From Streptomyces pluripotens (GTDB taxonomy: Bacteria; Actinomycetota; Actinomycetes; Streptomycetales; Streptomycetaceae): 64,000 nucleotides of DNA. The position numbers were made by a program, and so were the translations under genes. Shown piece after piece: positions 37-16,127 of this stretch (position 1 is the stretch's first letter; each line of letters opens with the position of its first letter). Below the pieces are notes generated by a model. The model was given only the letters and a program-made list of their open reading frames with translations. It made no database searches and was not told where the DNA came from. Location: the NCBI RefSeq assembly GCF_000802245.2, contig NZ_CP021080.1, positions 434,001-498,000 on the forward strand, written 5' to 3'.

Positions 37-240
37 TCAGAGGGCCGCGAACTCGATGAACGCGGTCCACGCCGTGGGGGCCACGGCGAGTGCGGCACGG
101 GCAGTGTCCTTGGAGTCACGGACGTGGACCGTGCCGGGGCGGGCGGCGACCTCGACGCATTCGCCGCCTTCCTCACTGCTATAGCTGCTCTTGCGCCATG
201 CCAACTCGTCTATGGGCGGCTGATGTACGTGCGCGTTCAT
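37..240 (-). CDS. DUF397 domain-containing protein
   Basis: Small 67-aa protein of the DUF397 family. The family signature is visible as [18 protein letters not shown] near residues 15-32 and VRDSKD near residue 40. Its ATG overlaps the stop codon of the upstream XRE-family gene (ATGA), so the two are translationally coupled. In Streptomyces such small acidic proteins are encoded next to WhiJ-like XRE/DUF5753 regulators and are thought to act with them in developmental or antibiotic control, in an antitoxin-like or co-regulator role. That role is inferred from the family and context. Confidence 0.9.
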
Positions 241-1067
241 GGCTCTCCCAGCAACTTCTCTACGTACGCCAATGATTCACGTGGAGTCAGGGCCTGCGCC
301 CGGATGATTCCGTACTTGGCCTCCAGCGCACGGACCCGATCCCGCTCCGTCTGCAGTCGGCTCACGTTCTGTACCTCAACGTACGCGATCCTCCGCCCTT
401 CCCTCGTTTCGATCAAGGTGAAGGGGCCAGCCATACCGGCGTTCTCCTCACGGTCGAGCGGCATCACCTGAATCTCGATGTTCCGCCGCTCCCCCGTCAG
501 GAGGACGTGCTCAAGCTGGCCACGCAGGACTCCCCACCCTCCGATCGGACGCCGCAATACGGCCTCATCGATGACGAAGCTGGCGAGCGGTGCAGCACGG
601 CCGCCCAAAATCTCCTGCCGGGCCAGGCGCGCGGACACTCGCTGTTCAATCAGTTCGTCATCCATGGGCGGCCTCATCATCATGAAGATGGCTCGGGCGT
701 ACTCCTCTGTCTGCAAGAGCCCGGGCACTGCCTGGTTCGCGTACACATGAAGCTCAACCGCCTCGGCCTCCAACCTGGCCGCGTCCCGGAAGAACGCCGG
801 ATACTGAGCCCGAGCCACCTCCTCCTTGCTCGCACTCAACACCCCGCCCCCTCCCAGCACTTCATCCGCCCGGTCGATGAACTTGGGCGGTGGAATGCGC
901 CTCCCCTGCTCGAACGACGCGATCGTCGAGGCGGAGTATCCGGTCAGTGACCCGAACTTCGCGCGGTCCATCCCCGCCCGCTCCCGGAACAGCTTCATCT
1001 GCCTCCCGAACACGCACAGCATGCCCGTCCCGACCTCGTACTCCGACTGCTGAACCTCGTCGTCCAC
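237..1067 (-). CDS. XRE-family regulator with DUF5753 domain (WhiJ-like)
   Basis: 276-aa cytoplasmic DNA-binding protein. An N-terminal helix-turn-helix (about residues 20-75, with [20 protein letters not shown]) is followed by a DUF5753 ligand or regulatory domain (about 95-265, with [14 protein letters not shown] and the RQEILGG stretch). The GTG start at 1067 is chosen because GAGGAG lies 7 nt upstream. It overlaps the downstream DUF397 gene by 4 bp. The nearest divergent gene encodes an RsbW-like ATPase. XRE + DUF397 + ATPase is the recurrent whiJ/abaA-like trio of Streptomyces, of which most genomes carry many paralogous copies. The targets of this copy cannot be read from the sequence. 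Confidence 0.9.
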
Positions 1068-1243
1068 GCCGCAGCTCCTCCCGTACGACCATCGCAGTCA
1101 CCGGACTCCGCCCGCCCAACGCACGACCCGGGAACCGGTCACGCCCGACGCCGCCTACAAGAGCACCGCCCACGTGTACAGCCCGCACCCGTCAGCACGT
1201 CGCTCCTGTTCAACGCTACGCAGAGTCCGCAACCGTTGACCGC

Positions 1244-1861
1244 ATGAAGTCAGCAACTCCCCCGAACGGGCACGTGCCCCAGCATTCCGCAACCGAACGT
1301 GAGTTCGCCATGCGCTTCACCTCGACCCCACGTGGTGCCCGTCTCGCCCGCCGACTCGTTTCGCACCGCCTGAACGACTGGGGCCACCCCTACACGACCC
1401 CGGCCAACGAGACGCTCACCCTCATCACGGCTGAACTCAGCGCCAACGCGGTACGCCACGGCCACGTCGCCGGCCGGGACTTTCGTGTTCAACTCACCCT
1501 GGCCGAGGACACCTTCCGCATTGAGGTGACCGACACCCGCGCCGAGAAGCAGCCCTCACTCATTCCCCCGACCCCCGACTCCGTATCCGAGTCCGGCCGG
1601 GGCCTCCTTCTCGTCGCCGCCCTCGCGGACGACTGGGGCGTCGCCCCTCGCCCAGCCGCCCCCGGCAAGACCGTATGGGCGGAGGTACGTCTACCGACCG
1701 GCGACCATCCGCACGCCCACCCGGTGGCGGCTCCTCATCTGGCAGATTCAGCACCGACGTACGGACATGGCACCGAAGCCACTGCGGCTACTTCTTCGCG
1801 GCAGCGCGTCGGCCTCGGGTCGCGGCCGGGGGTCGCCAGTTACGGAGATCGTCGTCGGTGA
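1244..1861 (+). CDS. ATP-binding protein, RsbW/HATPase_c-like anti-sigma type
   Basis: About 205 aa. It has the GHKL-type ATPase fold of serine-kinase anti-sigma factors. The N box is at ITAELSANAVRHG (about residue 66) and the G box at SESGRGLLLVAALADDWG (about 110-127). The fold starts at the MRFTSTPRGARLARRL stretch, so translation could begin at ATG 1244 or at ATG 1310. Neither has a convincing Shine-Dalgarno site. The fold ends near VWAEVRLP, but the frame continues for about 45 further residues and overlaps the convergent pglX 3' end by 74 bp. That tail resembles no domain I know and may be a junction product. It is divergent from the XRE/DUF397 pair and completes the whiJ-like trio. 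Confidence 0.8.
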   Translation: MKSATPPNGHVPQHSATEREFAMRFTSTPRGARLARRLVSHRLNDWGHPYTTPANETLTLITAELSANAVRHGHVAGRDFRVQLTLAEDTFRIEVTDTRAEKQPSLIPPTPDSVSESGRGLLLVAALADDWGVAPRPAAPGKTVWAEVRLPTGDHPHAHPVAAPHLADSAPTYGHGTEATAATSSRQRVGLGSRPGVASYGDRRR

Positions 1862-4800
1862 GCCCGTGCTCGCCCTGCTTCTGCTGGCGGTAGCCGGCGA
1901 AGAAGTCCGCCGGGGAGCCGCTGTAGAGCATGTCGAACTCGTTGTGCCACTGACCCAGCCACGGCTGGAGTTCCAGCAGGCCGGCGAGGAACGGCGTGAT
2001 CTCCTCGGTGGACAGCGCGGTGTTGGTGAAGTACGTGGCGAGGGCCTGCGCCTGCTCCCGGTGGTCCCAGCCTGCCCACCCGTACAACTCGGGGGTGGCG
2101 GCGTTGGTCTGTCCGTAGGAGACGAACCGCTCCTTCGGCACGTCGAGCTTGCCGCGCGCCCTCCAGTAGGAGGGGCGGAGGAAGTCGGCCGAGGTGTACT
2201 TCGGCGGCACCGGGATGGAGTCCCGGATCTTCCGCTTGGCGGGCTCGTCCGGCGCGGCGTCCTCCTTGCGCTGGAGGTCCCACACCTCTTCCCAGTCGGC
2301 TCGCTTCTTCAGCCCGGAGGGCTTGTAGCGCAGGGCGGAGAGGAACGGCACGTGCTCGTCGGTGATCAGCTCGGCGACGACCTTCGCCAGCTCCTTGCGG
2401 GGCGCGTAGAGCTTGGCGACGGAGACGAAGTCCTCGTCCCGCGAGAGCGCGTCGGTGAGGCGGGCCAGGGTGAGGATGGCAGGCTGACCGTTCTCGTCGA
2501 ACCAGAGCTCGCGGTTCTCCATCCGGTCGAGCAACCAGGAGCGCAGCGCCTTGTCCTGGAGCGCGTCCCAACCCTCAGTGGCCCAACGGCGCTTGTATTC
2601 GGGGCGCTCAACCATGCCGATCGCACGGTTCGACTCGATCGCGTCGATCCGCTTCTGCACGATCTCCCGGTAGGGGGCGGGCCAGTGGCCGGGGATCTCC
2701 GTGACGGGCGTGGAGCCGTGCCGCTTGAACCACTCGTCACTGGCTTCGCCTGCGGCGACGCGGCGCGCGAGGACGATTTCGAAAGCGCGCTCACCGAGTG
2801 CGAGCTCGGGGATATCGGGGGCGTCGGGGTCCTCGGAAACGCGGAGATCTTCGGGGTGGAGGTCGTAGAGGGAGTAGACCTGCCAGTCGAGTTCCTCTTG
2901 GAGGGCGATCATGCGGGCGTGGATGGACCGCCAGGCACCGCGGGCTTCCCGGAGGATGACGGTGGCGGGGGTGGTGACCTCGGCCACTGCGGTGGGAGTG
3001 GTGGAGCTGAGTTGCTGGGCGAGGGTGTCGAGAGCGGTGGTGAGAGCAGCAGGATAGGCAGCAGGGAGGGGGAACTCCTGGAGCTTAGTGCCGGTGAACT
3101 CGTAAAACCTCTCCCAAATCTGGGACTTATACCCTTCGTTGACCCCCTGGCTGCCCTTGTCGTGGCTCACCATTTTGAGCCAGAAGCCAGCAGTGGAGCT
3201 GTTGAGCAGCCCAAGCAACCGAAGGTGTTCCTCCTCACTCGCCCCCTCCCGCAGCTTGATCACCGGAGCAGTGCGAATGAACCCGCTTCGATCACGGCGC
3301 AGAGTGAACTGGTTGTGTGTAGCAACGAAGGAAAATGCGATGAGGAAGGGGGACCAATAGCGCCTACCATTGAAACTGGAAAACTCGAACCATGTCAGGC
3401 CCTGCTCCTCTTGCGTGCCAGAAAGGGCTCTGCGCCGCCGAAGAAGCACACGGTTGCGCCAAAGTAGCCGCTGAGTAGCAGCATCAATCTGCGCTGCCCG
3501 CGTCGCGTCATCATAGGGAAACACAGTACCAATGCCGTCCTGAACACCCCACTCCCTGACGGACGCACCCCCATAAAACCATCGAATGGAACTAGGCGGA
3601 ACACCCAATCGCCGCGCGGCAGTTGCACCGATCAAATAGGCGTCATCTTCTCGGGTTACAGCACAGAACCCAACACTCTCCGCTTCGGACGAGAGTTTGG
3701 CCACCTGCGCGCCCTCAATTTGAGCGTTCAACTCCAGGCCACCGTCAGTCAAAATCCACGGCTGGCGCGCAAAGTACCGCATCCGGTCAAGATCGCCCAC
3801 CGATACCCACTGACTCACCGAACCTGGCTTGTCGATCTGCCCGGCGATCGCCTGCCAGACCAACCCCTCTTCGGCCTTATCTGGGGCAGACGGTTCCCCT
3901 TGCACACTGCGGACCGTACGAATCGTCGTCGACCGGCCGGTTCCGGAACGGCGCTTGCCGATCAGGATGACCGTCGGCGTGCCGTGCCCAGGGATGTAGG
4001 CGCCAGAAGTATCGATGACCTCAGTGAGTTCGACTTCGTGGGTGAAGTAGTTCTCGATGAGCTTGGTGCCGAACTCCCGCTTCATGAATGAGTTCGCGGT
4101 GATCTGACCGACCATGCCATACCCATGGCCCTCTGTATCGCCGCGCTTGGCCAACTCAAAGAATCGTTGAGCGAAAGGCACCGATAGCGCGTACTGCATA
4201 GCACAGGCGTTGTACAGGCTCTTGTACAGCGCGTTCAGTTTCTTGTCTTTCACCGTGATGTACGGTGGATTCCCGACCACCACGTGATAACGCCCCTGCT
4301 GCAAGATCCCGGGGTGCGCATGCACATCCTCGGTGGCGTACGCGAAGGAGGCCAGCGGGTCGTCCTCCTCCTCATCCCCGCCCAGCGTCAACTCCAGCTG
4401 CCGCGCTTTGATGAGCGAGTCCCCCACCGCCAGATGCATCGGCCACTCGTACTTAGCTGCCTCCCCCAGCGTCCGCACTCCACTAGCCGCCATAGCCGCG
4501 ACCAGCAACCGGAACCGGGCAATGGCCACCGCGAACGGGTTGATGTCCACCCCGTGCACCGAGTCCAGCGCAGCCCGCACCCGCTCGTGCACATCACGTC
4601 CCGGCTGACCCTCCCCCCACAGCCGCACCAGCCGCCGAAACGCCCCCAGTACGAAGTGCCCCGATCCGCAGGTGGGGTCGATCATCTTCAGTTCCTCGTA
4701 CCCGAACTCCCGCACCGCGGGATTCATCGTCCGGTCGAGGATGAACTCCTCCACGAACTCCGGTGTCTGGAGCAGCGCGTACGTCTTCCGGGCGGCCTCG

Positions 4801-5396
4801 CTCAGGTCCTGGTACAGGTCGCCCAGGAACCGCGTGTCCCAGCCCTCCGTGCCGTCCTCGTTCAGCGGGTCGGTGAAGTCGTGGACGAGGACACCCGCCT
4901 CGTCCCGTCCCCGCCAGAACTCGACCAACTCCCGTGCACCGTCGTGCGAGAGCGGGATCTGGTACAGCGGGTTGTGCCGTTTGTCGAAGAGCAGCCGGCC
5001 CGCCTGCCCCAGGCCCAGCTCGTCGAACGCCTTCTCCAGCCAGCCCCGGTACGTCGGATCGTCGTCCGACTCCACGTAGGCGTCGTACCGCGACTCCGCC
5101 AGTTCCCGCCGGTCACCGTCCGGCCCCGTCAGGTACGGCTCGGGGATCAGCCGGTTGTCCTCGCAGAACCGTACGAACACAGTTCCCAGCACCCAGGCCA
5201 CCGCGACCTGCGTGACGCGCTCGTCCAGCCACGAGTTCCAGGTGGCCGCCGTACGCCCCAGCTTGCGCGCGCGCTCGTACTCGGCCCTGAGCCGCGTGCC
5301 GACCTCGTCCAGTGCCCCCACCTGTCGCCCGAGGTCGGCCTCGACCGCCTTGACCTGCTGCTTCAGGTCGTCCAACAGAGCCTTGCGGTCGATCAC
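1788..5396 (-). CDS. pglX: PglX, DNA adenine-specific methyltransferase of the Pgl (BREX type 2) defence system
   Basis: 1202 aa, the usual length for PglX. It is a class I SAM-dependent N6-adenine methyltransferase. The SAM-binding motif DPTCGSGHF is at 240-248, an acidic motif HGVDINPFA near 281-289, and the catalytic NPPY at 376-379. A long C-terminal target-recognition and scaffold region follows. The GTG start at 5396 overlaps the pglW stop (GTGA), so the two genes are coupled. In the S. coelicolor model, modification by PglX in a first infection cycle marks progeny phage, whose growth is then restricted in Pgl+ hosts. PglX is toxic without its partner PglZ. No long G or C tract occurs in the coding region (longest C6 near 4614-4619), so the poly-G phase variation known for S. 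coelicolor pglX is not evident. A DISARM or other PglX-like enzyme is possible, but the pglW neighbour argues for Pgl. Confidence 0.9.
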   Translation of the reverse strand: MIDRKALLDDLKQQVKAVEADLGRQVGALDEVGTRLRAEYERARKLGRTAATWNSWLDERVTQVAVAWVLGTVFVRFCEDNRLIPEPYLTGPDGDRRELAESRYDAYVESDDDPTYRGWLEKAFDELGLGQAGRLLFDKRHNPLYQIPLSHDGARELVEFWRGRDEAGVLVHDFTDPLNEDGTEGWDTRFLGDLYQDLSEAARKTYALLQTPEFVEEFILDRTMNPAVREFGYEELKMIDPTCGSGHFVLGAFRRLVRLWGEGQPGRDVHERVRAALDSVHGVDINPFAVAIARFRLLVAAMAASGVRTLGEAAKYEWPMHLAVGDSLIKARQLELTLGGDEEEDDPLASFAYATEDVHAHPGILQQGRYHVVVGNPPYITVKDKKLNALYKSLYNACAMQYALSVPFAQRFFELAKRGDTEGHGYGMVGQITANSFMKREFGTKLIENYFTHEVELTEVIDTSGAYIPGHGTPTVILIGKRRSGTGRSTTIRTVRSVQGEPSAPDKAEEGLVWQAIAGQIDKPGSVSQWVSVGDLDRMRYFARQPWILTDGGLELNAQIEGAQVAKLSSEAESVGFCAVTREDDAYLIGATAARRLGVPPSSIRWFYGGASVREWGVQDGIGTVFPYDDATRAAQIDAATQRLLWRNRVLLRRRRALSGTQEEQGLTWFEFSSFNGRRYWSPFLIAFSFVATHNQFTLRRDRSGFIRTAPVIKLREGASEEEHLRLLGLLNSSTAGFWLKMVSHDKGSQGVNEGYKSQIWERFYEFTGTKLQEFPLPAAYPAALTTALDTLAQQLSSTTPTAVAEVTTPATVILREARGAWRSIHARMIALQEELDWQVYSLYDLHPEDLRVSEDPDAPDIPELALGERAFEIVLARRVAAGEASDEWFKRHGSTPVTEIPGHWPAPYREIVQKRIDAIESNRAIGMVERPEYKRRWATEGWDALQDKALRSWLLDRMENRELWFDENGQPAILTLARLTDALSRDEDFVSVAKLYAPRKELAKVVAELITDEHVPFLSALRYKPSGLKKRADWEEVWDLQRKEDAAPDEPAKRKIRDSIPVPPKYTSADFLRPSYWRARGKLDVPKERFVSYGQTNAATPELYGWAGWDHREQAQALATYFTNTALSTEEITPFLAGLLELQPWLGQWHNEFDMLYSGSPADFFAGYRQQKQGEHGLTDDDLRNWRPPAATRGRRAAAKK

Positions 5397-8300
5397 TTCG
5401 CGTCTCCCTCGACAACGCTTGCCACACCCTCACCGGAACCGCGGTGGGCGTTGCCCACCCACGTGTCCGGAAGCTGGATCCACTCCCCCAGGCCGGCCTG
5501 GTACGGCACGGCCACCTGCCCGAGCCGGGGCTCGCGCGAGGGGTCGGCCTGCGGGACGAGGAGCCACAGCCCCCGCCCGCCCCGACGGGCCGCCGACGCC
5601 AGCCGGTCCAGGACGCCCATCGCGTCGTACCGCGCGAACACGCCAGCCTCCGTCAGCAGAACGGGCCCCGCTGCCGGACCGCTGTCGTTGCCCAGCAGTT
5701 CCGCGATCCGGGGCTCGACCGCGCCCCACGCCGTCCGCGCGTACTCCGCGAACCGCACGGCGCCCTTCGAGCCCGGCTCGGCGGCGTCGGCCTTGAGTAG
5801 GGTCTCCCAAGTCGGTTTGGTGCCCGGCGTGACCTGCGCGTGCAGGGCGTCAAGGAACAGCTCCGTCACCGACAACGCGGCCACGCCCAACCGATCGGCG
5901 CCCAGTTCGCGCACCGCGTCCCGTGTCAGGTGCTGCCGTACAGTCAGTACCCGATACCCGTCCCGGCGGGCCGATGCCAGCAGTCGCTCCTCCGCGCGCA
6001 CCGCGCCCGCGAGTTGCGGGTCGTCGGCGTAGCGCGTCACCGCACCCGTACGCGTCGACTGCCGCCACGCACCCGTCGTGAGGTAGCTGGACGCGTCCTC
6101 GATCCGCGTCGGCAGGTACCGCAGCGTGCCCGTGTCCTCGCGCGTGTTGAGCGACAGTTCGAAGCCCGCGTCGCGCAGGGCCTTGGTGAGCGGGCCACCC
6201 GTCGGCAGTGCGTGGACGGTGCCGCCCCGACCGTCCGGGACGACCAGCTCGGGGAAGCGTGCGCGTACCCGCTCGTGCACGTCGTCACCGGTCAGGCCGG
6301 GCTGACGGCCTTCCGGCACGCCCGGAATCCAGCGGACGAGTCCGGCCTGGGTCAGGCGCAACGCCCGGACGAGGGACAGGTCGCGCGGGTAGATCTCCAG
6401 GCGCGGGGTGGCGGCGGCGTTCACCGATGCCGCAGCCGCCAGCTCCACCATGCGCCGCTCGTCCCAGTCGACCGCGCCGGGCGGTACCGTCAGCGCGCCC
6501 AGTTCGGCCAGGACGGTCGCGGCCGTCGGCAGGGTGTCCAGCCTGGCGAGCCGGTCAGCCGTCTTGCCGAGACGGGTCGCGTATTCCAGCAGGCCGGGCG
6601 CGGTCGGGGTGTCCGGGCCGTCGTCCTCTCGTACGTCGAGGGCGAGCAGGCCGGCGCCGAGGGACTCGTCGGTCGCCTTGCGGTTGGCCTGGTGCTGGAA
6701 CTCGGCTTCCTGCGGAAGTAGTTGCTCGGCCTCGACCACGGCCCGTACAGCGGCCAGCGCCATCGCGCGCCGCTGCTCGCGCCCGGCGAGGTGGGTGCCG
6801 CGCCGGATGGCGAGCGCATCGGCGATCTCCACCGCCGACGCGACCCGCCCCATGCTCACCATCAGTTCGACGATCTCCTCGCGCAGGGCGTGGACGGCGG
6901 GCTCCGCCTTCCAGCGCTTGCGCTCCTCCTTGAGCATCTGCGGGATGCGGCCGTGGCTCAGGCCGAGCGCGTCGGCCACGTCCTTCTGCTTCGGCCAGAC
7001 GCCGATGCCGGGCAGCGCACCGTGCTCGTCGGGCAGGCGCAGCAGCAGCCGGACCATCTCCGCCTTGTTGCGGTTGGAGCCGTTGTTGTTGACGGCGGGC
7101 ACGAAGACGGTGGCGAGGGTGTCGAGGCTGACGGAGCGCAGCGTGCGCGGGGGCAGCGTGCCGGCCGAGTCGCCCGTCGCGAGCTGGCCGGCCACGGCCG
7201 ACTCGGCGGCGGTGAGTTGCTCCAGCTCCTCCTTGGCCTCCGCCCGGCCCTTGGCCGTGAGCGGGGAGACCGGCGTCGCGCGCAGCCGCTCGCCCCACTC
7301 CCGCTGGCGCTGCTGGACCTCGTTGCGGGTCTTGGCGCCGAGGCCGGGGGCGTTGACGAGCTTGCGGCGGCTGTAGTCCAGGAGTTCGCCGACCGTGGTG
7401 ATGCCCAGGCCGTAGAGGAAGGACTGGGCGGCGGGGGTGAGGCCGGAGACGGTCAGCGGGGTGTCCCCGGAGACGTCGGCGGCGAGACGGTCGCGCTGCT
7501 GCTCGGCGGTCTCCGGCTCGGCGTCCGCGATGCCCACGGAGGGAGCGCTCGGCGCGGACGACCCCTGCCCGGTGGGCGGGGCGGTCGGGTGGCGGGTGCG
7601 GTGGCTGGAGGGGACGGTCTGCGAGGCGTCGAGGAAGACCTTGCGCCAGGCGTCCCGCATCGGCTTGAGCTCGGGGTACCGCTTGCCCGCGTCGCGGTGC
7701 AGGGCCTTCTGGAAGAAGGCGACGAGCCCGTCCCGGACGGCCGGGTCGAAGGCCTCGGCCGCGATGGTCGGGTACGGCCACTCCTTGGCGTCGGTCATGC
7801 GGGGCAGCAGGCTGCCGTCGCCCCACCTGGGCAACTCACCGGAGGCCATCTGGTGCAGGGTGACGGCGACGGCGTACCGCTCGGCGTGCGAGTCGTACGA
7901 GCCGCGTGTGATGACGTCGACGAAGGGGTCGAGGTAGCCGTCGGTGCCCGCGTCGGTCTTGTTCGCCGGGTAGCCGGCGAGGGAGAAGTCGATGAGGACG
8001 AGTTCGCGGGTGCGGTTGGGGCGGATGCGGATGGCGATGTTGTCCGGCTTGATGTCGCGGTGCCAGACCCCCTCGCCCTCCAGGAAGTCGACGGCTCCGA
8101 ACAGGTAGTCGCCGTAGGCCTCCAACTGGTCGACCTGGAGGCGGCCGTTCTCGCGGAGCTGGCGGGCGACGGTCTCCTCGCGGCGGCGGGGGCGGGGGGT
8201 GCCCTCGGTGGCCGTGCCCTGGCCGGTGTCGTCCCGTTCGTCGCCGACGTACTCCAGGACCAGGACGGTACGGCCGCCGATGTGCTGCGGCTCGGGTTCG

Positions 8301-10090
8301 ACGAGGCGGATGATGCGGGAGTCGGGGCGCAGGCGGCCCATGGCCTCGGCCTCGCGGACCAGGATCTCGCCGCGGCTGTCGGAGAGGGCGACCTTCAGCA
8401 CCGCCAGCGGGCGGGTCTTGTGGGCCTCGGCCTGCAGGTCGCGGACGAGGAAGGCGCGGCTGGTGGAGCCGGTGCCGAGGCGGCGGCGGATCTCCCAGCG
8501 GCCGGCGAGCACGTCACCGGCGACGGCCTCCAGCGGGTCCTTCTCGGAGGGAGCCGCCCCGGCATCGCCCTCGCCCTGTCCGTCGGAGGCGGCGGCCTCG
8601 GTGGCGGGGGCGGTGAGGGAGTCCTCGACGACTTCCAGCAGTTCCAGGAACTCGTCGACGCTGGAGAGGCGTTGTCCGGGGCGGTAGGCGGTGGCGGCCT
8701 GCACCAGCTCGTCCACGTCCTCCGACAGGCCGTCCACCAGGGAGCTGGGGCGCAGGCCCTCCCCCGCTTCCAGGCGGGCCAGCAGTTCGGCCTGGCTGGC
8801 GGCCGGGGCCTTTCCGGTGACCAGGAGGTAGGTGAGGACGCCGAGGCCGTAGACGTCGAGGTAGACCGGGTCGGGGTGGAGGGCGGTGAGTTCGGGGGCG
8901 AGGTAGGGGTCGGCGTCCTCACCCAGGTGCATGGAGGACAGGGCCGTCGGCGCGAACCGGGTGACGCCCTGGGAGGAGTCAGCGCTGCGCTGGGTGGCGA
9001 TCTGCCAGTCGGAGATCTGGAGCCGTGGGGCGAGCCAGGCGGCCTCCTCGCCGACGGCCCGGCCCTTCCGGCCGCGCGGGCGGGGGACGACGTGCACGGA
9101 GCGGGCGGCGAGCGCCCGGTGGTGGATGCGGCTGGAGTGCGCGGAGCGCATGGTCTCGGCGAGCTGGCGGACCAGCGCCATCCGGCCGAGGATGTCCAGC
9201 TTCTCACCGTACTGGACCAGGAACTCGTCCAGCTTCAGGGTGTCCGGGTGGTAGTCGAAGATCAGCGCGGGGCCGGCGGCGTGGCCGGAGGGGAAGTACT
9301 GCTTGAGTTCGACGGCGCCCGGGTGCTTGAAGCGGCCGAGCACCGCTGCCTCGCGCCGGGCGGCGTTCTCGACGGACTGCCTCAGCGAGGCGTCCGAGCC
9401 GCGCTCGCTGAGGTAGATGCGGACCCGGGCGGCCTCGGGCAGGTCGCTGTGGCGGGCGAGGTAGTCGGCCCAGGTGGGTCCGGAGTCGAAGGACTTCCGC
9501 TCCAGCTCGTACGGGCCGACCTTGTACTGCGCCTCGCTCTTGCGGATGCCGACCTTCTTCAGGGCCGCGGCGATCTCGCGGGAGCCGATCGCGGTGATGC
9601 GGCGGCGTTCGTCACGCGGGGGCTGCTGGAGCATGTCGACCAGCTGGGCGACGGTGTACACGCCGTTCTGGTCGTGGGCGGGCAGGCGTACGCGGAGGCC
9701 GTTGTCCGTGAAGCAGACGGCCTCGGCGACCCAGACCCGCTTGCCGCCGGTCTGCGCGAGGAGCCCGGCCAGTTCCTTGGCCTTCTTGTTGACCAGGTGC
9801 AGCGGATTGCCGTGCGTGCGGCGGCGTCCGCGGGGCGTGGTCTGGACCCAGGTGCCGTTCTCCGAGGTGAGCGAGCCGTGCCAGTCCTTGAGCTCGATCA
9901 TGCAGACGCCGCCGGGGGCGACGACCAGGAGGTCGACCTCGCGGACATGGCCCGTGTGCGCGGTGAAGGTGAAGTTCGACCAGGCGCGCCAGGGGTCGGA
10001 GTCCGGCAGCTTCGCGCGGATCGCTTCCAGGCCGCGGCGTTCGTGATCGAACTCGGACTCGGTGACCGTGACCCACCGGCCTTCCCGCAT
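5393..10090 (-). CDS. pglW: PglW, NERD-tandem kinase protein of the Pgl (BREX type 2) system
   Basis: 1565 aa. Domains in order: NERD nuclease-related domain (about 10-120; E51, D53 and the ELK at 66-68 fit the nuclease core); a degenerate kinase (about 200-490) whose catalytic loop reads HHRALAAR and whose DFG is replaced by SDW at 360-362; then an apparently active Ser/Thr kinase (about 527-815). The active kinase has glycine loop GTGSTSRAF at 539-547, Lys566, HRDIKPDN at 677-684, DFS at 701-703 and GTDGYLDP at 715-722. An RNA-polymerase-alpha-CTD-like helix-hairpin-helix lies at about 880-925, then a winged-helix-like region. ATG 10090 is the first start and directly precedes the NERD domain. 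PglW of S. coelicolor is a kinase required for phage growth limitation. It is co-transcribed with pglX through a 4-bp overlap. pglY and pglZ are not in the window. Confidence 0.92.
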   Translation of the reverse strand: MREGRWVTVTESEFDHERRGLEAIRAKLPDSDPWRAWSNFTFTAHTGHVREVDLLVVAPGGVCMIELKDWHGSLTSENGTWVQTTPRGRRRTHGNPLHLVNKKAKELAGLLAQTGGKRVWVAEAVCFTDNGLRVRLPAHDQNGVYTVAQLVDMLQQPPRDERRRITAIGSREIAAALKKVGIRKSEAQYKVGPYELERKSFDSGPTWADYLARHSDLPEAARVRIYLSERGSDASLRQSVENAARREAAVLGRFKHPGAVELKQYFPSGHAAGPALIFDYHPDTLKLDEFLVQYGEKLDILGRMALVRQLAETMRSAHSSRIHHRALAARSVHVVPRPRGRKGRAVGEEAAWLAPRLQISDWQIATQRSADSSQGVTRFAPTALSSMHLGEDADPYLAPELTALHPDPVYLDVYGLGVLTYLLVTGKAPAASQAELLARLEAGEGLRPSSLVDGLSEDVDELVQAATAYRPGQRLSSVDEFLELLEVVEDSLTAPATEAAASDGQGEGDAGAAPSEKDPLEAVAGDVLAGRWEIRRRLGTGSTSRAFLVRDLQAEAHKTRPLAVLKVALSDSRGEILVREAEAMGRLRPDSRIIRLVEPEPQHIGGRTVLVLEYVGDERDDTGQGTATEGTPRPRRREETVARQLRENGRLQVDQLEAYGDYLFGAVDFLEGEGVWHRDIKPDNIAIRIRPNRTRELVLIDFSLAGYPANKTDAGTDGYLDPFVDVITRGSYDSHAERYAVAVTLHQMASGELPRWGDGSLLPRMTDAKEWPYPTIAAEAFDPAVRDGLVAFFQKALHRDAGKRYPELKPMRDAWRKVFLDASQTVPSSHRTRHPTAPPTGQGSSAPSAPSVGIADAEPETAEQQRDRLAADVSGDTPLTVSGLTPAAQSFLYGLGITTVGELLDYSRRKLVNAPGLGAKTRNEVQQRQREWGERLRATPVSPLTAKGRAEAKEELEQLTAAESAVAGQLATGDSAGTLPPRTLRSVSLDTLATVFVPAVNNNGSNRNKAEMVRLLLRLPDEHGALPGIGVWPKQKDVADALGLSHGRIPQMLKEERKRWKAEPAVHALREEIVELMVSMGRVASAVEIADALAIRRGTHLAGREQRRAMALAAVRAVVEAEQLLPQEAEFQHQANRKATDESLGAGLLALDVREDDGPDTPTAPGLLEYATRLGKTADRLARLDTLPTAATVLAELGALTVPPGAVDWDERRMVELAAAASVNAAATPRLEIYPRDLSLVRALRLTQAGLVRWIPGVPEGRQPGLTGDDVHERVRARFPELVVPDGRGGTVHALPTGGPLTKALRDAGFELSLNTREDTGTLRYLPTRIEDASSYLTTGAWRQSTRTGAVTRYADDPQLAGAVRAEERLLASARRDGYRVLTVRQHLTRDAVRELGADRLGVAALSVTELFLDALHAQVTPGTKPTWETLLKADAAEPGSKGAVRFAEYARTAWGAVEPRIAELLGNDSGPAAGPVLLTEAGVFARYDAMGVLDRLASAARRGGRGLWLLVPQADPSREPRLGQVAVPYQAGLGEWIQLPDTWVGNAHRGSGEGVASVVEGDAK

Positions 10091-10239
10091 GCCTGTTCCC
10101 CGCTTCTCGTCTCCCGCAAGGGTCGCCGTTCCCCGCGGTCAGACCCAGATGGCAGATCCTAGTGCCTGTCTCTGACACGGGAAGAGACGTTGGAACACGG
10201 GATACCGGCTCGCTGCTCAGGCGGCGGGGATTCTTTCGC
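10091..10239 (-). promoter_or_regulatory. Leader region upstream of pglW
   Basis: Non-coding stretch that should carry the pglW-pglX promoter. On the minus strand a TAGGAT hexamer (10156-10161) could serve as a -10 element, but no good -35 lies at the right distance. A short inverted repeat TGTC-tct-GACA sits at 10167-10177, just upstream of that hexamer, and could be an operator. Both are weak calls from sequence only. Confidence 0.3.
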
Positions 10240-10371
10240 TCAGGCGTCGTCGACGAGCCACTCGATGCGGTTGCGCTGGACGCCCGCCCCCTCGGTCGCC
10301 TCGCGGTCGCGGCCCCACTCCTGTGCCAGGAGGGTCTGGCGCGCCCGGTCACGGTCTTCCGCCGCAGCGCA
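10240..10371 (-). pseudogene. 3' fragment of an unidentified gene
   Basis: About 43 codons ending in TGA at 10240-10242 read AEDRDRARQTLLAQEW, then GRDREATEGAGVQRNRIEWL and VDDA. Nearly every codon ends in G or C, which is the coding signature of this genome. The composition is that of a normal hydrophilic C-terminus, not of a shadow frame. Upstream the frame degenerates into Arg/Pro-rich sequence and runs into the litS antisense, so no intact gene can be built. I read it as the surviving tail of a gene truncated when the pgl and lit blocks were joined. The 10372-10514 stretch holds nothing else I can assign. Confidence 0.35.
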
Positions 10372-10514
10372 CCCGGTGGGGGCCGGAAGGCGGAGCCGTA
10401 CCGGCGCCGGACGTCGATGCCGCTGCGGGGGATACCTGGGGCTGCCTCGTGCGCCTCGCCCGGCGGCGCAGCCTCCTCGTCGCATCGATGGTGCAGCGGT
10501 CCAATACGCGCGCC

Positions 10515-11138
10515 TCAGGCGGCGCGCACGCCGTCGTCCTGCAGGCAGGTCCGAAGCCGGTCGAGCCCGCGGCGGGTGTGGCTCTTGACCGTGCCCAGCG
10601 GCCATCCGGTGACCGCCGCAATCTGCGTCTGGGTGAGGTCCTGGTAGAAGGCGAGCCGCAGGACGCGTCGCTGGGGAGCCGAGAGCCGGGCCAGGGCGGC
10701 GGTGACGACCAGGCGGTCCAGCGCGGTGTCGGGGTCGCGCTCCGGGGCCCGACTCGTCGCGGGTCGTTCGGCAGCCCGCGCGGTCAGTTCGGCGCGGCGG
10801 GCGCGCGCGGCGAGGGCGTCGGCCACCTTGCGCCGGGTGATGCCCGCGAGCCAGGCGGGGATCGGTCCCCGTTCGGCACGGTAGCCGGCGCGCCCGCGCC
10901 AGGCGGCTGCGAACACCTGCTGCGTCACGTCCTCGGCGTCCCGGCTGTCTCCCAGCGTCCGCCGGGCGAGCGCGTGAACGTATCCGGACCACCGCTGGTG
11001 CAGTTCCGACCAGTCCGTGCCGAGGCCGTCCGCCTCGGGGGCGGAAGACTCGGGGGCGGAAGACTCGGGGGCGGAAGACTCGACGGTCCGTGCGCAGGAG
11101 AGAGCCGTCTCGGGATGGATCGTCGCAAGCCGGTTCAT
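10515..11138 (-). CDS. litS: ECF sigma factor LitS, light-induced carotenogenesis
   Basis: 207-aa extracytoplasmic-function sigma factor. Region 2 is visible as WSGYVHALARRTLGDSRDAE and DVTQQVFAAAW (about 45-80). Region 4 is near the C-terminus, with LSAPQRRVLRLAFYQDLTQT and the recognition helix GWPLGTVKSHTRRGLDRLR. ATG 11138 is preceded by AGGAGG at 7 nt. LitS in S. coelicolor directs light-dependent transcription of the crt operons and is itself induced through LitR. Here it is divergent from the litR-like gene and next to crt genes, which supports the assignment. The N-terminus carries an ESSAP tandem repeat that is not needed for the sigma fold. No anti-sigma gene is adjacent, and litA and litB were not recognised. 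Confidence 0.85.
   Translation of the reverse strand: MNRLATIHPETALSCARTVESSAPESSAPESSAPEADGLGTDWSELHQRWSGYVHALARRTLGDSRDAEDVTQQVFAAAWRGRAGYRAERGPIPAWLAGITRRKVADALAARARRAELTARAAERPATSRAPERDPDTALDRLVVTAALARLSAPQRRVLRLAFYQDLTQTQIAAVTGWPLGTVKSHTRRGLDRLRTCLQDDGVRAA
11035..11079 (-). repeat. 15-bp x3 in-frame tandem repeat in litS
   Basis: Three perfect copies of TCGGGGGCGGAAGAC (plus-strand reading) at 11035-11049, 11050-11064 and 11065-11079. In litS they encode ESSAP three times, ahead of sigma region 2. The unit length is a multiple of three, so copy-number changes would keep the frame. Confidence 0.9.
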
Positions 11139-11404
11139 CGCGTGCCTCCTGGGCGATCGGCGCCGGGTACGTCGTTCCGGCCTTGCCTCAGACTGCGCAC
11201 GGGGGAAGTATGGGGACAACTCGCATCGTTCTCGCATCGATAGCTTCTCGTCACCGTCGTGTCCCGTTTCCACACCGTCGTGTCCCGCTTCCGCGGGCCA
11301 GCCGACAGCACCAGGACGCTGATCTTCGCCATGACCACGAGCACCCCGCCCCCACCTCCACCCCCACCGCCGAACCGGACGGCGCCCCACCGGCAGGCCA
11401 GACC
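11139..11404. promoter_or_regulatory. Divergent litS/litR control region with direct repeats
   Basis: 266-bp intergenic region between divergent litS and litR. It contains two near-identical 20-mers with a 21-bp period, CACCGTCGTGTCCCGYTTCC, at 11252-11271 and 11273-11292. It also holds a second repeat, CTCGCATCG, at 11220-11228 and 11231-11239 (11-bp period, one helical turn). In S. coelicolor LitR activates the litS promoter in this region, so these repeats are the best candidate LitR sites. That function is inferred. An in-frame ATG at 11210 could extend LitR upstream but would place the 20-mer repeats inside the gene. Confidence 0.5.
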
Positions 11405-12457
11405 ATGACCGGCCCACCCGCCGAAGCGGCCGTCACCACGGGTGTGCTCGCCCGCCGGCTCGGTGTCTCGCCCACCACCCTGCGCTCCTGGGACCGTCGC
11501 TACGGGCTCGGTCCGACCGGGCGTTCGCCCGGTGGCCACCGCCGCTGGTCGCCCACGGACATCGCGATGGCGGAGGAGATGTGCCGGCTCACGGCCTCCG
11601 GAGCCCCGCCGGCGGAGGCGGCGCGCGTGGCCCTGCTGCGCTTCGCACCGGGCGGTGGGCAGGAGAGCCGCGAGGCGCCGGCACCCCGACCGCCCGGCCC
11701 TGGAGCGGTCCCGGACGTCCCGCCGGCCGCCGCGGCGGCGCGCCCCGGCGGCCCCGGCGGCGGGCTACCGCTCGGGGACGTGCGGCAGGAGTGCCGCGGC
11801 CTGGCCCGATCCGCGGTACGGCTGGACGCGCCGGAGCTCGACCATCGGTTGCGGGACGCCGTACGGCACCACGGCCTGGCGGTGGCGTGGGAGGAGGTGA
11901 TGGTGCCGACGCTGCGCGCGGTGGGCCGCAAGTGGGAGTCGTCCGGTGACCGCTACGTGGAGGTCGAGCACCTGCTGTCCTGGCACATCTCCAGCACCCT
12001 GCGCAGCGCTCCGCTGCTGCTGCCCAGCGCTCCGCCGCCGGCCAAGGCCCCGCCCGTGGTGCTGGCCTGCACACCCGGCGAGCAGCACTCGCTGGCCCTG
12101 GAGGCGCTGACCGCCGCGCTGGGCGAGCGGGGCGTACCGACGCGGACACTGGGCGCGGCCGTGCCGGCGGAGGCGTTGCAGGCGTGCGTACGCCGCACCG
12201 GTCCGACCGCTGTCGTGCTGTGGGCGCAGACCCGCTCGACGGCCTCGGTGCCGCTGGCCCGGCACGTGGCCGGGCTCCAGTGGGGAGCGGCCGGCGCGCG
12301 GCGACGGCCCGTGGTGCTGCCGGCCGGACCGGGCTGGGGCCAGCCGGCGAGGTCGGGCTTTCCACACTGCACCGGGCTGCGGGACGCGGTGGCAGTCCTG
12401 AGCCGCCTCTACGACGAGGACCGCGGCGCACGCCCCGCGCCGGTCGGGGCCGGCTGA
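11405..12457 (+). CDS. litR: LitR-like MerR-family photoregulator with B12-binding-like domain
   Basis: 350 aa. A MerR-type winged helix at about 10-75 contains VLARRLGVSPTTLRSWDRRY and GHRRW. A Pro/Gly/Ala-rich linker runs about 82-122. The C-terminal half resembles the cobalamin-binding light sensor of CarH/LitR: W177 and EH at 188-189 match the W-x9-EH pocket with one extra residue. GEQH at 225-228 matches the lower-ligand His, and a Rossmann-like segment follows. The residue after the conserved Trp is Glu, so the upper His ligand of Thermus CarH is absent. ATG 11405 is chosen because it directly precedes the HTH; its RBS is weak. Divergent from litS. Expected role: adenosyl-B12- and light-dependent control of litS and the crt genes. 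Confidence 0.82.
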   Translation: MTGPPAEAAVTTGVLARRLGVSPTTLRSWDRRYGLGPTGRSPGGHRRWSPTDIAMAEEMCRLTASGAPPAEAARVALLRFAPGGGQESREAPAPRPPGPGAVPDVPPAAAAARPGGPGGGLPLGDVRQECRGLARSAVRLDAPELDHRLRDAVRHHGLAVAWEEVMVPTLRAVGRKWESSGDRYVEVEHLLSWHISSTLRSAPLLLPSAPPPAKAPPVVLACTPGEQHSLALEALTAALGERGVPTRTLGAAVPAEALQACVRRTGPTAVVLWAQTRSTASVPLARHVAGLQWGAAGARRRPVVLPAGPGWGQPARSGFPHCTGLRDAVAVLSRLYDEDRGARPAPVGAG

Positions 12458-12511
12458 CGCCCCCGGGCCTGCAGCAGCCCCCGGTCGGCGGGGCAAGCCG
12501 GACCGGGTGCC

Positions 12512-12567
12512 GGGACCGTCCCGCCCAGCCGGGGACCGTCCCACTCAGCCGGGGAATCGTCCCGCGG
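12512..12567. repeat. 20-bp direct repeats at the litR/DUF5914 convergent junction
   Basis: GGGACCGTCCCGCCCAGCCG at 12512-12531 is repeated with two changes at 12532-12551, and a third partial copy (GGGAATCGTCCCGCGG) begins at 12552. Each copy contains the self-complementary GGGACCGTCCC core, so each could form a small hairpin. The array covers the DUF5914 stop codon and may act as a termination zone between the two convergent genes. Confidence 0.6.
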
Positions 12568-13555
12568 AACGCAGCGCCCAGCGGCGCTCGGCGTAGGCCA
12601 GGTCGTCGCGCCACAGCCGGCCGGCGACGGCTCGCACGACCGGGCGCAGCACCGGGGCGGCGCGACGGGCCACAGCGAAGCCGGTCCGCCCGGACGTGGC
12701 GATGACGGCCTCCACAACTGCCGTGCGCGGCTGTCCGCCGGCGTCCGGCCCGAGCGGGGTGGCGTGCGTCTCCACCACGGAGCCCTCCCCTTCGCCCGCC
12801 GTGATCCGCATGACGACGGTGCGCGGGCCGGGAGCGGTGAACACCGCGCGGACCGGGACGACGAGTCGCCCCGCCACTTTGAAGGACACGTCCACCGTGA
12901 ACGAGTCGTCCTCCTCGCCCCGGGTGGGGGCTCGGACCACAGCCAGGTCGACGAAGGAGTACGGGTGGAACCAGGCACCGTGCCAGGGGTCGAGGCGGTT
13001 GGCGACCACGTCCTCCGGTTCGCAGGCGCCGACCCTGGTGTAGACGGCCGTCAGCGCCGCGGCCACCATCGGGCGCTCCGGCACCGCCGGGCGGTCTACG
13101 GGCTGTTCTCCCCCGACCTCGTCCAGCCGCACCCAGACCAGTACCCCGTCGTCATGGGCCGGCCACGGCTCCCAGCCGGCGAACGGCCCTCCGTCCAGGG
13201 CGAGCCCGTGCCAGCGGCACACCAGGGTGCCGCAGCGCACCGGGCTGTCCCCTAGGGGCGCCCCCAGGTGCGGACAGCTGCCCGGCCCGGCCACCAGACG
13301 CCCCTCTCCGTTCCGCCACAGGACGACCTCCCGCCCGGCCACGGAGCGGGCCATCGGGCGGTCGGGGCGCAGCGCGCGGGAGGCACCGACGACGTACCAG
13401 TTACCGGTGGGGCGGGCCTGGGCGCGTGCGAGTGCGTCGGCGATCAGCGCGGGGCTCGCTTCGCGCCAGGTGGGGCGCTGGCGTTCCCAGGCGACGGGGG
13501 CGCGGCGCAGGCTCACCGGCACACGACGGCGACGCGACGGTGGGACGGGGCTCAC
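12545..13555 (-). CDS. crtV: DUF5914/Rieske [2Fe-2S] protein in the crtV position
   Basis: 336 aa. A Rieske cluster-binding motif is intact: CPHLGAP (C-x-H), then CRWHG (C-x2-H) 18 residues further on. It is followed by a long C-terminal ligand-binding-like region containing [15 protein letters not shown]. The GTG start at 13555 overlaps the crtB stop (GTGA). It is the last gene of the crtE-crtI-crtB-x operon, the place occupied by crtV in other streptomycetes, hence the symbol. CrtV has been called a putative methylesterase, but the visible chemistry is that of a Rieske-type electron-transfer or oxygenase-like protein, perhaps acting on carotenoid end groups. The substrate cannot be inferred. 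The last codons lie in a direct-repeat array. Confidence 0.8.
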
Positions 13556-14571
13556 ACGATCTCCTCGTGGCGGACCGGTGCGTGGGCGGTGCGGTGCACG
13601 GGCGGTACGGCGGCCGGTGCGGGCCGGCCGCGGGTCCTGCGGGCGGCGGTGCGGGCGGCGGCCAGCCGGATCAGGCCGTCGGCCGCGACCAGCGCCCGGC
13701 GCCGCCGAGGCACCACGGCGCGATGGCGGAGCACGGCGTACCCGGTGGCGGCGACCGCGTCCAGGATGCCGCCGTACAGGACGAACGCGGTGCGGATGCA
13801 GGGCTGGGAAACCGGGTCGAGCAGGGCCACGCCGGGCGCGGCGCGACGGTAGGCGGCGCGGGTGAGCGACGCGAACTCCTCGAACGCCGCCGTGACCCGG
13901 TGGTCGGTAGTGCCGGTGTCGCGGCAGTGGTGCAACAGGTCGCGGTGGACGCCGTGGGCGGCCAGGACGTCCTGGGGGATGTAGACCCGTCCGCGGTCCA
14001 GGTCCTCCCCCACGTCCCGCAGGAAGTTGGTGAGCTGGAAGGCAACGCCCAGTTCGGCCGCGTAGGGCTCGGCTTCCTCGCGCGGGCCCGGGGTGCCGAG
14101 GACGGGCAGCATCTGCAGGCCGATGACGGCGGCCGAGCCGTGCATGTAGCCGCGCAGCTCGGCGTAGGTGGCGTAGTCGGTGACCGTCAGGTCGCTGCGC
14201 ATGGAGGCGAGGAAGTCGGTGAGGTGGCGGTGGTCGATGGCGTACCGGTGCGCGGTGTCGGCGAGTGCCCGCACCACCGGTTCGGCACCCGTGCCGCCGG
14301 CCAGGCCGCGGGCGAGGTCGGCGGCCAGCCGGTCGAGGGCAGCGGCGCGGACGTCCGGGCCGGCGGTGTCGTCGAGGGAGTCGACGATGTCGTCGGCCCA
14401 GCGGGCGAAGCCGTACAGCGCGTGCACGGCAGGGCGTTGGCCGGGGGTGAGCAGCCGGGTGGCGAGGAAGTAGGTGCGGCCGTGCCGTGCGTTCAGCTCG
14501 CGACAGCGGGTGTACGCGGCGCGGAGCTCCGGGTCGGTGACGCCGGCGGCGTCCAGCTCCCGGGCGGTCAT
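13552..14571 (-). CDS. crtB: Phytoene synthase CrtB
   Basis: 339 aa, squalene/phytoene synthase family. It condenses two geranylgeranyl diphosphates to phytoene, the committed step of C40 carotenoid synthesis. Both metal-binding aspartate regions are visible: [16 protein letters not shown] (about 53-68) and the second one in [19 protein letters not shown] with [12 protein letters not shown] 14571 overlaps the crtI stop (ATGA), and the stop overlaps the next GTG, so translation is coupled on both sides. The C-terminus has a basic His/Arg-rich tail. Confidence 0.95.
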
Positions 14572-16127
14572 GGGCGGGCTCCTTGGGGAGAACCCGGGGT
14601 CCGGATGCCCCGGGAGGCGGTGGTGCGGCCGGCGCGGGTCCCGCTGGTGACACCGGTGAGGCGAGCGGCAGCGAGCTTGCCCGACAGCAGGACGGGCGGT
14701 ACTCCGACGCCAGGCGTGGTGCCGCAGCCGGCGAGGACGGCGTTGGTGGTGCCGCGCACCAGATTGCGGGGGCGGAACGGGCCGGTCTGGGCCATGCTGT
14801 GCGCGGCGGAGAAGGGGGTACCGGCCGCGTGGCCCTGCGCCGTCCAGTCGGCCGGGGTGACCAGGCACTCCTCCTCGATCGACGCGGCGATGCCGTCGAG
14901 TCCCCGGCGTTCCAGCTCGCGTAGCAGGCCGTCGCGGTAGCGAGGGCCGAGGTCGTGCCAGTCGGCGAGCCCGGGGCCGAGGCCGGTATGCGGGCAGGGG
15001 GCGAGGATGTAGTGCAGGTGCCGGCCTGGCGGAGCCAGCGCGGGGTCGGTGGCGGTGGGACGGGTGATCAGCAGGGAGGGGTCGCTCATCAGCTCGCCGG
15101 TGCGGGTGAGTTCGTCGAAGGTGCGCCGCCAGGCGTGTCCGAAGGACAGGGTGTGGTGGGCCAGTTGGGGCCAGGTGCGGTCACAGCCGGCGTGCAGGAC
15201 GACGGCCGAGGGGGCGTGCCGCAGCCGCACCGGGCGGCGCGGGGTGCGGCCGAGGAGGCGGTAGGCCGCCGGCAGTTCCGGGGTCAGGACGACGGCGTCG
15301 CAGGGGATGCGTCCCTCGTCGGTGATCACGGCGGTGATCCGGTCGCCTAAGCGTTCCAGTGAGGTGACGGGCCGGCCGTAGTGGAGGACGGCGCCGGCCT
15401 CCTCGGCCGCCTCGGCCATCGCACGCGGCAGGGCGTGCATGCCACCGCGCGGGAAGTACACGCCGGCGACGGTGTCCATGTAGGCGATGACCGCATAGGC
15501 GGCGAGGGCGCGCGTCGGGGGCACGCCCGCGTAGAGGGCCTGGAAGGTGAAGACACGGCGCAGCCGCTCGTCGCGCAGATGGCGGGCCACGGCTGACTCC
15601 CAGCGTCCGAAGCCGCCGAGCACGGCGAGCCGCACCAGGTCGGGACCGAGCAGCTGCCGGGCGGAGTCGAAGTCGGCGTCGAGGAAACGGTGTCGCTCGG
15701 CCCGGTACAGCTCGGTCAGCCACTGCCGCAGCCGGTGGTAGCCGGCTGCTTCGGCCGGGCCGGCGAAGCGTTCCACCTCCGCCTCCATCGCGTCGGCGTC
15801 GGTGTGCACGTCGAGCGTAGCGCCGTCAGCGAAGGACGCGCGGTAGGCCGGGTGCAGCGGCATCAGATCGATGCGGTCGTACATCGACGCGCCGACCGCG
15901 GCGAACGCCTCGTCCGCGACCTCCGGCATGGTCAGTACGGTGGGACCGGTGTCGATGCGATAGCCGGCGCGCTCGATCCGGCCGGCACGCCCGCCGGGAC
16001 CGGCGTCGCGTTCGACGACGGTCACCCGGCGGCCCGCGCCGAGGAGGTGCAGGGCGGCGGACAGGCCGGCGAGCCCGGCGCCGACGACCACCACGTGGTC
16101 GGTGGGTCCCTTCAGGGATCGACTCAC
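14568..16127 (-). CDS. crtI: Phytoene desaturase CrtI
   Basis: 519 aa. FAD-dependent phytoene desaturase converting phytoene to lycopene. The N-terminal dinucleotide-binding motif [20 protein letters not shown] (about 12-31) is followed by [10 protein letters not shown]. The C-terminal FAD/substrate signature is [19 protein letters not shown]. The GTG start at 16127 overlaps the crtE stop (GTGA). Second gene of the crtE-crtI-crtB-crtV operon. The last 30 or so residues are Arg/Thr-rich and variable. Confidence 0.95.

Follow-up and report, generated by a model that had tools for sequence, protein, structure and literature searches.

A complete BREX type 2 (Pgl) locus of Streptomyces pluripotens, cut in two by the edge of a 64 kb window

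Six BREX genes on one strand

The analysed window is a 64 kb stretch that represents genome positions 434001-498000 of a single contig of 7,346,075 bases, window base 1 being genome base 434001. Two large genes with a 4-base overlap are situated near its left end, and four further BREX genes are located on the same strand 2,977 to 14,455 bases to the left of window base 1. The pglY/pglZ and brxD/brxHI gene pairs also overlap by 4 bases each. The six genes are:

Window 5393..10090, minus strand: pglW, 1565 aa, encoding a NERD domain, two kinase-family domains and a C-terminal part
Window 1788..5396, minus strand: pglX, 1202 aa, encoding an N6-adenine DNA methyltransferase with the motif NPPY at residue 376
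Genome C1:426923-431023, minus strand: pglY, 1366 aa as listed; NF047891 (BREX-2 PglY), 2258 bits, cut-off 1700
Genome C1:424011-426926, minus strand: pglZ, 971 aa; NF033446 (BREX-2 PglZ), 1001 bits, cut-off 200
Genome C1:421744-423402, minus strand: brxD, 552 aa; NF033438, 651 bits, cut-off 350
Genome C1:419546-421747, minus strand: brxHI, 733 aa; PADLOC BrxHI model PDLC02503, 1065 bits, residues 19-730

The first-pass annotation had described the two genes in the window as a pglW-pglX pair, and this pair is real and correctly named. The scores with the NCBIfam equivalog models were far above the cut-offs, namely 1711 bits for PglW with BREX_PglW (NF033442, BREX system kinase PglW; cut-off 990) and 1806 bits for the full 1202 aa of PglX with BREX_2_MTaseX (NF033451, BREX-2 methyltransferase PglX; cut-off 400). 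The domains were in agreement with both names. In PglW, Pfam detected NERD and two kinase-family stretches, and a match to RNA_pol_A_CTD remained slightly under the cut-off (22.2 versus 23.8 bits). In PglX, which was submitted to the Pfam search without its first codon, the domains Eco57I methylase, MmeI_Mtase and DUF7008 were found. Of 28 PglW matches in the genome, one is full-length (1559 bits) and 27 are partial with at most 99.6 bits; the genome encodes one PglX with a DUF7008 domain.

The same annotation had noted that the window contains neither pglY nor pglZ, and had considered that the partners lie to the left or that the two genes form a stand-alone variant. Family searches of the whole 7.35 Mb genome at E <= 0.001 yielded no PglY or PglZ match inside the window, in agreement with the former observation. 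They yielded one PglZ-family match (424827-425345, minus strand, 8.7 kb left of the window) and, adjacent to it, one PglY/BrxC-family match (426926-430822). The suggested absence was thus not borne out: both genes are situated some 3-10 kb to the left of the window, and they seemed to be lacking because the left window edge cuts the locus in two. PglZ also matched the alkaline-phosphatase-like family PF08665 with 32.2 bits (cut-off 25). Five of the six proteins passed their NCBIfam BREX cut-offs; for the sixth, BrxHI, no NCBIfam model passed its cut-off, and the assignment is given by the PADLOC score. The genome thus contains one complete BREX type 2 set, in which each of the six genes has an open frame and a score typical of its family. 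BREX type 2 comprises BrxC/PglY, PglX and PglZ as the core together with PglW, BrxD and BrxHI (PMC12839542), and the gene set found here is identical to it, with no difference from the set as given in the consulted part of that article.

These results bear directly on the idea that PglW and PglX function here without PglY and PglZ. The only point in its favor at this locus was the 64 kb window devoid of both genes, whereas some 5 kb downstream the same strand carries uninterrupted pglY and pglZ frames and, after them, brxD and brxHI. With pglY and pglZ found left of the window by the search of the organism's own genome, an outcome that the first-pass annotation itself had specified as pointing to an ordinary split Pgl system, the stand-alone two-gene variant was rejected for this locus, and its probability is negligible.

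Reading frames and motifs compared with Streptomyces coelicolor

The closest known system is that of S. coelicolor A3(2). According to the consulted part of PMC4365076, its pglWX and pglYZ form separate operons at a distance of 6 kbp, and its PglX is a DNA methyltransferase that is toxic in the absence of functional PglZ. Both the separate position of pglYZ and the toxicity of PglX, which had been mentioned in the first-pass annotation, are therefore confirmed by this source. Resistance requires the Walker A motif of PglY and the kinase activity of PglW, and phase variation has been ascribed to a G tract of the pglX gene (PMC4365076).

None of the six S. pluripotens genes contains an internal stop codon, and the motif residues agree with those that the same text names or reports as tested for S. 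coelicolor (PMC4365076). PglX carries DPTCGSG at 240 and NPPY at 376 (378 in S. coelicolor), PglZ has D536 and D694 (D535 and D694 in S. coelicolor), and PglY has the identical Walker A motif GSFGSGKS, which starts at residue 139 of the listed frame and occupies residues 75-82 in S. coelicolor. PglW has NERD and two kinase domains, as in S. coelicolor, with HRD at 677 and DFS at 701, and the separation of the two gene pairs is also alike, 6 kbp there and about 5 kb here (PMC4365076). In BrxD and BrxHI, Walker A and B or DExH motifs are present. Three pattern searches were negative: helicase motif VI gave no match in BrxHI, a PD-ExK site gave none in PglX, and the glycine-loop pattern gave only a spurious match in PglW.

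Two peculiarities of the frames were analyzed further. First, DFS instead of DFG could have indicated a defective PglW kinase. This was rejected, as DFS was present in all 25 pattern matches across 80 related loci, and it therefore looks typical of the family. A PglY pattern applied to these loci gave no match at all and is uninformative about their PglY. Second, the Walker A motif of PglY is offset by 64 residues relative to S. coelicolor, a methionine is present at residue 65, and the model match begins at residue 69. Taken together, this suggests that M65 is the true start of PglY. The gap between pglX and pglY is 4.76 kb with the listed start of pglY and about 4.96 kb with the M65 start.

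The pglX-pglY interval and related loci

The region between pglX and pglY contains several genes that are unrelated to BREX:

Window 890..1861, plus strand: HATPase_c_2 (anti-sigma-like) gene, convergent with pglX and overlapping its 3' end (coordinates of the frame as listed, whose actual start may be more internal)
Window 237..1067, minus strand: HTH-DUF5753 regulator, also a weak match to PADLOC RmrA (21.4 bits)
Window 37..240 (L003 10037-10240), minus strand: DUF397 protein of 67 aa, following the HTH-DUF5753 gene
L003 8661-9683, left of the window, minus strand: frame of 340 aa with no family match in Pfam (E 1e-3), PADLOC (1e-20) or NCBIfam (1e-10)

In addition, the interval includes a NUDIX/DUF4916 gene and a short TPR frame of 168 aa, which may be a gene fragment. 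The HATPase_c_2 gene belongs to the interval and is not a BREX core component.

On the other side of the locus, to the right of pglW, window positions 10515-15929 encode a sigma-70-type factor, a MerR/B12-binding regulator, which we take to be LitR-like, a phytoene/squalene synthase and an amine oxidase. Judging from these domains, this region is probably a light-regulated carotenoid cluster and not part of the defence functions. Scans for a tRNA-linked insertion site of the locus led nowhere: the left flank of the window contained no tRNA over 20 kb, and the only one seen, a tRNA-Tyr at window 33404-33487, is far from the BREX genes.

For a comparison with related loci, named genomes were scanned with PglY and the best 80 of 99 confirmed stretches were analyzed. 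The neighboring genes were sought with the proteins of the S. pluripotens locus as queries and with score thresholds, so that diverged partners could escape the following counts. Among these best 80 stretches, pglZ is the next gene after pglY in 75 of the 76 loci with sufficient room, and brxD and brxHI are located downstream in 72 of 74, the two misses being L049 and L021. L049 is also the one of the 76 loci without pglZ after pglY; it has PglY, and PglZ, BrxD and BrxHI were unmatched with 10 kb visible downstream. In 54 of the 80 loci, pglY is preceded on the same strand by a pglX gene whose 3' end is visible; many of these pglX genes are cut at the 5' end by the edge of the stretch. The gap to pglY is 1.1-9.1 kb in 37 of the 54 and below 100 bp, small overlaps included, in the other 17. 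In the remaining 26 loci no upstream pglX was detected by these criteria within the visible sequence, which was shorter than 10 kb in 8 cases and about 10 kb in 18 cases; larger gaps between pglX and pglY, or losses, may occur elsewhere among the relatives. A split of several kb, as in S. coelicolor (PMC4365076), is thus common in the relatives, and such a gap is normal.

The HATPase gene showed a narrower distribution. When relatives with at least 84% best-segment identity of PglY were defined as close, an opposite-strand HATPase match at most 200 bases from the pglX end was present in 16 of 19 close relatives and in none of the other 35 of the 54 loci.

The presence of unrelated genes in the interval, including the short TPR frame as a possible fragment, could be taken to mean that the gene set, though complete, is decaying or defective and that the 5 kb interval has broken its function. 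However, all six frames are open and carry the motifs named in S. coelicolor, in which the system is functional despite the separation of 6 kbp (PMC4365076). Furthermore, gaps of 1.1-9.1 kb are found in 37 of 54 relatives, and 16 of 19 close relatives also have the HATPase gene at the end of pglX. We therefore regard a decaying locus as very improbable.

The G tract is one feature in which pglX differs from its S. coelicolor counterpart as described in PMC4365076, on which the contrast rests: the longest G run in the S. pluripotens gene is only 6. Nor did the pglX stretches matched in the fetched related and genus loci, many of these stretches being partial, contain a run of at least 8 G or C. 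It is conceivable that the HATPase, HTH-DUF5753 and DUF397 genes, shared with close relatives, were added in this lineage as a regulatory module for pgl expression that replaces phase variation by the G tract, in which case the locus would still be BREX type 2, but we consider this unlikely.

PglX-like genes without partners in the genus

The occurrence of PglX without its partners was quantified in 199 genomes of the genus, including that of S. pluripotens, by a DUF7008 and a PglZ search with the same settings. DUF7008 was matched in 49 genomes (48 over the cut-off) and PglZ in 41, a number that may be too low because at most four first-look candidates per genome were scored and a PglZ could be missed. 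Both were found in 38 genomes, DUF7008 alone in 11 and PglZ alone in 3. The surroundings were inspected for 8 of the 11 DUF7008-only genomes, G024, G073 and G132 being left out with matches of only 23-40 profile positions. A PglW-PglX pair without partners was found at none of these 8 loci. One of them, L087, is an ordinary locus truncated by the contig ends: its contig of 14.9 kb carries pglX together with the end of pglW and most of pglY. Two others, L085 and L086, encode lone PglX-like proteins with nearly end-to-end matches. At the other five, only an incomplete piece of pglX was found, and a partial BrxHI match lies near one of these pieces.

Three additional loci, L088, L089 and L090, were fetched as presumed second copies of PglX in PglZ-containing genomes; for L089, only the first PglX copy and its PglW were reported. 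Three PglX-like genes found in these two sets of loci resemble one another in their isolation:

L085 9673-13233, minus strand: PglX-like, frame of 1186 aa, PADLOC PglX 1158 bits
L086 ~9936-13517, minus strand: PglX-like, nearly end-to-end match
L088 6560-10432, plus strand: PglX-like, frame of 1290 aa, PADLOC PglX 1341 bits

The three proteins show 40-42% best-segment identity to the S. pluripotens PglX, nearly end to end. No PglW, PglY, PglZ, BrxD or BrxHI exceeded the thresholds in 20 kb around them, and in two of the three genomes (G008 and G174) PglZ had no match genome-wide with at most four candidates scored per genome. Such PglX-like genes without detected partners might seem to favor a stand-alone PglW-PglX system, though they are not accompanied by PglW; they are possibly orphan methyltransferases or type IIG-like enzymes. 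The second PglX of L090 (9687-13289, minus strand) is 87% identical to the S. pluripotens protein in the best segment, and no other BREX gene was detected in 20 kb around it. Its genome, G189, holds another PglX and a PglZ elsewhere.

In summary, we are nearly certain that the S. pluripotens locus is a complete and ordinary BREX type 2 (Pgl) system in which pglW-pglX is followed, after roughly 5 kb occupied by regulatory and other genes, by pglY-pglZ-brxD-brxHI, all six genes being on the minus strand. The locus is of an already known kind. Work on S. coelicolor and the BREX literature lead to the expectation that PglX would methylate adenine in DNA under the control of the PglW kinase, that PglY and BrxD would be ATPases and BrxHI a helicase, and that PglZ would be an alkaline-phosphatase-like partner that restrains PglX and a putative nuclease effector. 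The six proteins would jointly limit phage growth. The analysis removes a false lead, as it was a window edge that made a standard six-gene defence locus resemble a two-gene variant. It also adds a Pgl locus with a pglX gene that lacks a long G tract and, as this sequence and the S. coelicolor literature taken together suggest, the system may be fixed in the 'on' state and not be phase variable.
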